In this document: positions 14,190 through 46,714 of the stretch, piece after piece
Layout: every line of letters starts with the position of its first letter
How positions within the stretch are numbered: the first letter of the stretch is position 1
Origin: Utricularia gibba
Lineage: Eukaryota > Streptophyta > Magnoliopsida > Lamiales > Lentibulariaceae
Assembly (NCBI GenBank): GCA_002189035.1
Contig: NEEC01000004.1
Location: 1,612,001 to 1,676,000 of the forward strand
Direction: 5' to 3'
Length of the DNA: 64,000 bases
The notes under the pieces: generated by a model
Told to the model about the DNA's origin: nothing
Seen by the model: the letters and a program-made list of their open reading frames with translations, nothing else
Databases searched by the model: none
Program-made: the position numbers and the translations under genes

Positions 14190-16433
14190 ATGCTTGCTTT
14201 CATTGAGCGCTTCCTCCCGGACGCCGTCCCTTCGGATGAAGATGAACACCAGCGATACGCCGACGTTTTGCCCCTCTTCAAGTCCCTGGACCTTGATTTC
14301 TCTTTCGCGTCTTCCTCTGCCTCCTGGGATTTCGGGCACTTGCGCCCCTCTAATCCGTTGGCTGTGGTTCAGCCCGCCTCTGCGGACGACGTCGCTAAGG
14401 TGGTTCAGTTAGCGCTCCGGTCCAGCGACTTGAGTGTCGCCGCCCGGGGCAACGGCCATTCCGTCAACGGGCAGTCCCTCGCCGACCGGGGAATAGTCAT
14501 TGAGATGAGGGCGCTCCAGCCCAGGATCGATGTTTTTCCAGAGGGGGAGTGGCGGACGTCAGCGGCGGCGCATTGTGGGAGGATGTGCTGATGCACTGCG
14601 TTTCAGAGCACAAGCTCTGCCCCCGCTCCTGGACCGATTATTTGGGGCTCACCGTTGGCGGTACCCTTTCCAACGGCGGAGTCAGCGGACAGAGCTTCCT
14701 CTACGGCCCGCAGACGGAAAACGTGACGGAGATGGAGGTCGTCACCGGAAACGGCGACGTTTTGATTTGCTCCAAAAATCAAAACTCGGAGCTCTTCTAC
14801 GGCATCCTGGGCGGATTGGGCCAATTCGGCATCATCACCCGCGCCAGAATCCTCCTCCACCCCATCCCGATAAGGTACCACATGACCCATCCACGCCGGC
14901 GAAGACATTTCATCTTATAGTGATTCTTTACACGGGGTTTACGTTTCTCACAGGTCCGGTGGATACGACTGGTGTACTCGGAGTTCGGCGAGTTCGCTCG
15001 CGACGCGGAGCAGCTCGTTACGCGCCCCGCCGGAGAAACCTTTCATTACGTGGAAGGATTCGTGTTCGTGAACAGCTCCGACCCGGTAAACGGATGGCCG
15101 TCCGTGCCCCTAAACTCGACCCAGTTTTTCGACCCGGCCCGAATACCTGACACCGCCGGCCCCGTTCTGTATTGTCTCGAAGTGGCTCTGCATTACAACC
15201 ACGACGACTCGGAGTCGATGATCGATAAGGTAATCGGCTTCCCTTTTTTTTTTCATTTTTTAAATGAAGGAAATCCGGGGTGGCATCCTTTGACCTACCA
15301 AGAAGCGGGGTCCCGCAAGCGCCGTGATGTTGACAAAACTGGTCGACGTGAAACGAGTCAAAAACCGAGCGGCGGAGCCACGGCGGCGACGGATAACAAA
15401 ATAGACCCGTTGAAAAGCGACGGGACGGGGAGGCGAGTATCTTCCATTGGATTTTCTGACAGCGCACCCGTTCGGGAAATGGGCGTCGTCTTCTGTGTTT
15501 ATTACGGAAGTGCCACCTCGTATCCCCTCTGCCCCCATGGCTAAAACAGTAACTTCACCATCACCCGGATCTTCATGACGTCCCCCACGAAGATCGCCAT
15601 AGGAGAACCCAGACCCACTTCATTTATTTATTATCTAATTTTTTTTTCTTCATTTTCATCAATAATTGAGTAATGATTTTTGTGTTCCAATGCCAATCAC
15701 TTCTCTGGATTTGGCATTTACAGAAGATCGAGAGGTTGGTCGGAGGGCTGAGCTCCCTGGAGGGGCTGAGGTTCGAGACGGACGTGGGGTACACGCAGTT
15801 CCTGACGAGGGTGAAGCGCGTGGAGGATGAAGCCAAGGCCAACGGTACATGGGACGCGCCGCACCCCTGGCTCAACCTCTTCGTTTCCAAAGATGACATG
15901 GCGGAGTTCGATAGGCTGGTGTTCAAAGACATTCTCCGCCACGGCGTCGGAGGCCCGGTCCTCGTGTATCCCCTGCTTCGCTCCAAGTAAGCACCCCATT
16001 CCGACCACTCTCCTTCTGCCACGTCCCCCTTTCACTTAATCATGGTTACTGTTCGGGACTTAACCATGGTTAGCGTGGAGCGGCTAATGCTTTTGTTGGT
16101 TGTGGCAAAAACACAAACAGGTGGGATGCAAGAAAGTCGGTGGCGTTGCCGGAAGCGGAGATATTCTACCTGGTTGCGCTGCTGAGATTCTGCTCGCCGG
16201 AAGGTTTGAGTGCCGAAGAAATGGTGGTTCAGAACAAGGAAATCATCAAGATCTGCTCCCGCAAGGGGTTCGATTTCAAGATGTATCTCCCGCACTACAC
16301 CTGTATGGAAGAATGGGGTGCTCACTTCGGGAATCAATGGGCGAGATTCCAGCGCAGAAAGGCCGATTTTGATCCGACGGCAGTCCTCGCTCCCGGCCAA
16401 AAAATATTTCCAAGGAACTGGCAGATCAAATAG
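14190..16433 (+). CDS. CKX7: Cytokinin dehydrogenase, cytosolic CKX7 type (two apparent 1-base losses)
   Basis: Flavoprotein that irreversibly cleaves the N6 side chain of cytokinins. Exons: 14190-14874, 14954-15229, 15724-15986, 16121-16433. Key features: [10 protein letters not shown] (His is the covalent FAD site), [53 protein letters not shown], the substrate domain with HPWLNLF, and C-terminal [10 protein letters not shown] and APGQKIF. No signal peptide is present and the N-terminus is short, as in CKX7; [14 protein letters not shown] and YPLLRS also fit CKX7. Two single-base losses break the frame: near 14541-14553 in a G-rich run before DVSGG, and at the exon-2 acceptor (14954). With both restored the length is 512 residues, normal for the family. 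As printed, translation stops at 14591. Either the assembly has errors or the gene is recently dead; errors are more likely given the same pattern in neighbouring genes. Confidence 0.88.
15230..15723 (+). other. GC-rich CKX7 intron with long open reading continuation
   Basis: Intron 2 of CKX7 (donor GTAATC, acceptor TTTACAG). Unlike the other introns here it is GC-rich over 15260-15600, and the exon-2 frame stays open for about 105 codons into it. The sequence encoded matches no part of a cytokinin dehydrogenase, and exon 3 continues the protein exactly when this stretch is removed. Confidence 0.6.
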
Positions 16434-45479: not shown

Positions 45480-46714
45480 ATGGCGGAGCAGATGGCCAGG
45501 CTGAAGATCAACGGAGACGACTGCTGTATTTTCAACGTTTCAGGTGTTGCAGAGATTGACCGCATGAGCTTCATGCCCAGCTTGTTTCCATCGGGCCTTA
45601 CCATCACGGAGAATATCGCCTGCGAATGATGGAGGAGCACAAGTCAAGATTTTTAAAAGACATGCTCCGGCGAATCGAGAGAAATGGCGTCAAAGAGGAG
45701 GATTTGCTGGAAGAAGTTAGCACTCTGGAGGATCTGGCCCGGGGTTACTATTGGTCACGATTCAATTATGATTCTGAGGATTTTGTCAAACTGCTTGTCA
45801 CTGATGGGTGCTTCGTGATTGAGCTGCTCAGAAAATATGGTGAACAGAATCGAGTGGACGGGGCTGAGCCTTTGCTCACCATTTCACCCATTCGTGCCCC
45901 CTTGTTCCGTGACCTCTTTTTGGTTGAAAACCAGGTTCCCTTTAAGATTCTCGAGAAACTGTACAACCGCATTTACACGTCCTCCGGCACTGACCTAAGG
46001 AGCATGATGGTAAGAGTTTTCAGGATCATAGCATGGCCACTGAAATTTGAGTGCAACCCAGAAAACCTGGGAAACCTGGATCCCAGGCACCTCCTTGATT
46101 TGGCACGTCTGAGCCTCATACCAGATAAGTTGAAGGAGGCACACGAGAGGCAGTATGAGCTCACTAGCATCCAGGCTATTCGGAACCTCCTCCGCTCTGG
46201 GATACGTTTCCGGCATGATAAAGAAAGCAAAAGCCCCATTGAAGTCGAGTTTCAAAGGGGAGAGCTGATCTTACCGACATTAGTCCTGGATGATTTCACA
46301 TTACCCCTGTTTCGGAACTTCGTGATCTTCGAGCAGTGCGGCAGATATTCTTCGATGCACATGACAGCCTACGCCTTCCTCTTGACTGATCTCATCACCT
46401 CGGAGGAGGACTTGGAATACCTTTGTAAAAAGGGGATCACTGTTAACTACTTCGGGAGTAACGCCAAAGTTGTGCAGATCATGCAAGACATGCTGGCCGG
46501 TGTGCCTTATGATATCTCAAGGTCGTATTTGTACCCGCTGTACAAAGATGTCGGCCGGCACTGTAGAAGCCGCCTGCATGTTCAGATAGCAGGGTTCAAG
46601 TACGCCTATTTCAGAACGCCGTGGTCGTTCATCTCTTCCTTGGTGGCCGCTGCCCTTTTGCTTCTCACCATCACCTCCACCACCTTCACCATTCTCAAAT
46701 TTCTCTTAAGATAG
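45480..46714 (+). CDS. DUF247 protein, first of a tandem pair (one apparent 1-base loss)
   Basis: Plant-specific DUF247 membrane protein (UPF0481), intronless. Start ATG at 45480-45482 (MAEQMARLKINGDDCCIFNVSGV). One base is missing at about 45584-45587, between RMSFMPSL and the SIGPYHHGE block that typifies DUF247. After it the frame runs to 46714: MMEEHKSRFLKDMLRR, YYWSRFNYDSEDFVKLLVTDGCFVIELL, DLFLVENQVPFKILEKLY, LELDDFT-type LVLDDFTLPLFRNFVIFEQC, EEDLEYLCKKGITVNYFG, and a C-terminal membrane helix (FISSLVAAALLLLTITSTTF). With one base restored the protein has 411 residues. An A-tract of about 17 bases lies roughly 26 bp after the stop. Function of the family is mostly unknown; some members act in self-incompatibility in grasses. 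Confidence 0.85.

Follow-up and report, generated by a model that had tools for sequence, protein, structure and literature searches.

Single-base losses at short G/C runs in conserved genes of Utricularia gibba: very probably assembly error rather than gene death

Introduction

Assemblies built from PacBio reads only are known to retain some homopolymer deletions. In azuki bean, for example, a PacBio assembly conflicted with short reads at 38,889 deletions and 8,611 insertions, mainly in homopolymers, and the assembly was wrong at 91 of the 91 conflict sites that were tested by Sanger sequencing (PMC4663752). Errors that fragment genes have also been described in long-read assemblies (PMC12007338). 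The other system that invites comparison is that of the pseudogenes which remain when a genome fractionates following whole-genome duplication. The frame breaks analysed here in Utricularia gibba resemble both. As in azuki bean, single-base deletions in short homopolymers break otherwise intact genes and indels outnumber substitutions; as in fractionated copies, the frameshifts lie in recognisable genes. However, the bias towards G/C runs at matched length is strong here, unlike in azuki bean, and the density seems higher than that of the 38,889 deletion conflicts in the whole azuki assembly. Unlike fractionation pseudogenes, the broken genes are free of stops and larger deletions, are under strong purifying selection where this was tested, and have only single-base losses at G/C runs.

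The published PacBio assembly of U. gibba was made with HGAP at 88x and has a contig N50 of 3.4 Mb (PMC5793159), and its Unitig_8 measures 6.8 Mb (PMC8333044). The assembly analysed here comprises 100.09 Mb in 516 contigs, whereas 581 contigs were published; its N50 is at least 3.45 Mb and its contig C451 is 6.82 Mb long. It is probably the PacBio-only HGAP assembly of U. gibba. The window, which is the whole stretch of 64,000 nucleotides that was analysed, corresponds to C413:1612001-1676000 and lies well inside a contig of 5.67 Mb. Positions below are those of the window unless a contig is named.

Results

An earlier note on the window had listed 13 one-base losses in six genes. Twelve of them were reproduced: when one base was added to the named G/C run, a single stop-free and family-typical frame was obtained which united both conserved halves, while the site in a putative DUF1645 gene stayed unconfirmed. 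No gain was found among the 12 verified sites and loss outscored gain at most templated sites, which agrees with the view that all were losses. The affected runs as assembled were 2-5 bases long at these 12 sites, and the placement in runs of three or more G or C held for 11 of them, the exception being a run of two C in the sugar transporter gene. Most positions were as given before, and two had to be moved (see below). Frameshift-aware alignment returned net one-base losses in the STP, SUFB and DUF247 genes; for the CKX gene, the pieces were linked by X before alignment. At the templated sites, in the window and elsewhere, a one-base loss scored clearly higher than a one-base gain, and higher than a two-base gain at nearly all of them. 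The exceptions were a gene at a contig end (L061), L069b, where the scores were tied, and L062a and L066b, which slightly favoured a two-base gain. At several sites adjacent or synonymous choices score alike, so that the exact lost base is ambiguous by homology and its assignment to the run is the simplest one.

The cytokinin dehydrogenase 7-like (CKX) gene on the forward strand carries two losses. The first lies in a G5 run at 14543-14547 that is one base short; its repair restores a stretch of 17 residues, across which LuCKX1.1 (6c80) and AtCKX7 (2exr) align. The second lies at the end of exon 1, in a C4 run at 14860-14863 which is also one base short, and its repair restores LLHPHPDK before the GT donor. 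This loss had previously been placed at 14954. That position was rejected because exon 2 starts in frame there (CACAG, then GTCCGGTGG, read as V-R-W); PDB homologues read P-D-M-V-R-W-I-R across the exon junction.

The sugar transport protein (STP) gene (22187-24260, reverse strand; STP10 match, 4e-72) has three losses, located by frameshift-aware alignment to the intact paralogue L048. They fall at 24134-24137 (G4), 23231-23233 (G3) and 22491-22492 (C2, with the adjoining T2 an equally good fit). Repair of the first restores 21 residues, and the homeolog L046 has MAGGGGFGDLPQAGKGYPGNLT at this place. Furthermore, L046 is itself broken, at a different G4. The PPR-E gene (26540-28482, forward strand) is one reading frame with four breaks, at 27045-27048 (G4), 27126-27128 (G3), 27359-27362 (G4) and 28021-28024 (C4), and its PPR repeats and E motif are spread over the successive frame pieces.

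In the SUFB gene (35155-36985, reverse strand), which was compared with bacterial SufB homologues, both pieces match SufB equivalog models. Two losses were placed, at 35949-35952 (C4, where an added G just alongside scores slightly better against the bacterial template) and at 35804-35806 (G3). The first of two DUF247 copies, on the forward strand, lost one base from a C3 run at 45576-45578, as seen by alignment to the intact second copy in the same window (47278-48522); the earlier position was 45584. The two copies form a tandem pair at 45560-48522. The putative DUF1645 gene (40593-40952, reverse strand) has its frame broken once, somewhere from about 40700 to 40790; in the list of open reading frames, the break appears as a net loss of one base where one minus-strand frame gives way to another. 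A Pfam search with its pieces and with the joined protein matched no family. Its family and break site are therefore putative and follow the earlier note.

The same signature was found across the genome. Twenty of 23 templated breakpoints lay at most 6 bases from a G/C run of three or more, whereas 25.7% of all positions in the coding stretches concerned lie that close (P=1.2e-9). No such excess was seen for A/T runs, with nine of the 23 breakpoints nearby and 35.8% expected (P=0.45). When the genome was scanned for the GRAS family, many full-length open genes were recovered, and about a dozen of some 40 loci looked broken, being split without room for an intron. The inspected GRAS sequences, from the interior of many other contigs, had lost single bases at G/C runs that ranged from G2 to C7. 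According to the profile tables, 13 GRAS pairs and 3 KCS pairs were net -1 splits, the KCS pairs being read from the profile table only. Of the five +1/-2 cases, one was at a contig end, one was a decayed copy, one was a gene that had two losses, and two were KCS pairs with an odd overlap of their profile parts. The inferred loss rate is, as a very rough figure, 0.2 to 0.9 per kb of coding sequence.

Some regions were assembled twice, and small contigs (C316, C422 and C234) whose sequence is also present in C412, C414 and C505, respectively, represent redundancy left in the assembly. C316 (38 kb) duplicates part of C412 (about 826-860 kb), giving two assemblies of one region, between which 23 substitutions and 35 indels of a single base were counted over 29.3 kb. 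Among runs of length 4, 5 of 99 G/C runs were one base apart vs 1 of 356 A/T runs; at length 5 the counts were 4 of 13 and 1 of 113, respectively. At matched length, disagreement was thus much more frequent in G/C runs than in A/T runs (stratified odds ratio 9.6, P=7e-9). Because of the substitutions, C316 may be either another haplotype or a contig of low coverage. The end of C414 is present a second time in C422; a GRAS gene there lacks bases and is broken in the C414 copy but is open over 497 codons in the C422 copy, with no substitution in the coding part. The redundant pair C234/C505 was free of substitutions and differed by only four indels, which lay mostly in AT repeats and had no G/C bias. 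No second contig that covers the window was found in the assembly.

Discussion

The losses at G/C runs throughout the genome, the disagreement between double assemblies and the purifying selection on STP all support the proposal of the earlier note that the breaks reflect assembly error and not gene death. Four marks of long-read homopolymer error were present: single-base indels at homopolymers, deletions in excess of insertions, occurrence in unrelated genes and contigs, and, for regions outside the window, disagreement between independent assemblies. Assembly error accounts for the outcome of every test. We are therefore highly confident that the frameshifts arose as errors in the consensus of an assembly built only from long reads and that the genes are functional in the plant, and for the 13 window sites themselves we strongly infer assembly error. 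The six genes would look broken only through bases dropped from short G/C runs, so the plant itself very probably carries intact versions. Consensus calling very probably shortened some G/C runs of 2 to 7 bases by one base; the likely cause would be homopolymer deletions that PacBio consensus calling left behind, and not another step. The error is known in kind, whereas its density and its G/C bias at matched run length are unusual, and no explanation for the G/C preference was found in the literature searched. Several observations count against error: the inferred loss rate exceeds what we would expect of a polished 88x PacBio assembly, C316 and C412 differ by substitutions as well, the indels of C234/C505 are not G/C-biased, and, according to one review, raw PacBio reads are little biased by homopolymers (PMC4719071).

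Real pseudogenes, i.e. copies decayed by small deletions after whole-genome duplications, are a very unlikely alternative. Duplicated blocks do exist, such as window 32430-38550 and C4:2835766-2851429, which share 77-90% DNA identity, and the GRAS copy L068 (C244:2105330-2106250), with a stop and in-frame deletions, is probably a true pseudogene. However, the aligned window genes are otherwise undecayed: after the frames were joined, SUFB, STP and DUF247 copy 1 had neither stops nor larger deletions over their aligned lengths, in keeping with the earlier claim of no other decay. STP, the one window gene in which relaxed selection, a mark of pseudogenes, was looked for, gave no sign of it. Compared with L046 over 342 codons, it had a Ks of 1.5, a Ka of 0.10 and a Ka/Ks of 0.068, and the segments downstream of the breaks had Ka/Ks of 0.06 and 0.13, so STP is under strong purifying selection on both sides of the breaks. 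SUFB has no second copy, being the sole SufB found in the genome; the only other SufBD match, on C255, reads like SufD. Since SUFB has no match in the duplicated block on C4, it appears to have been lost from that copy. In Arabidopsis, SufB knockout is embryo-lethal (PMC5347852). Decay by deletion also fits poorly with losses that are single bases at G/C runs, and with the GRAS gene whose C414 copy is broken while its C422 copy, a further assembly of this DNA, is open. That the shortened G/C runs are real, produced by germline slippage or repair bias and tolerated via ribosomal frameshifting or transcriptional slippage, would agree with the strong, genome-wide G/C specificity but is extremely improbable, since such runs differ between two assemblies of the same DNA, slippage should strike the many longer A/T runs too, and the PPR gene with its four breaks would require as many recoding events.

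Assembly error is an artefact, yet it is relevant to users of this assembly. If this is the reference assembly of U. gibba, a considerable fraction of its genes appears broken on technical grounds, which would affect pseudogene counts, claims of gene loss, protein predictions and tests of deletion bias behind genome shrinkage. Short-read polishing should fix the shortened runs.

Several other features were noted in the window. A syntaxin-like gene lies at 28896-29868 on the forward strand; its second part is open, has no Pfam SNARE match and ends in a plausible membrane anchor. A further frameshift that had been suspected in this gene (29359-29868) was rejected because the frame is open. Two Senescence_reg (PF04520) genes, both apparently open, are located within 8 kb of each other at 52181-52762 (reverse strand) and 59466-59972 (forward strand), and a match to the MIR171 precursor was found at 62441-62545 on both strands (80 and 56 bits).
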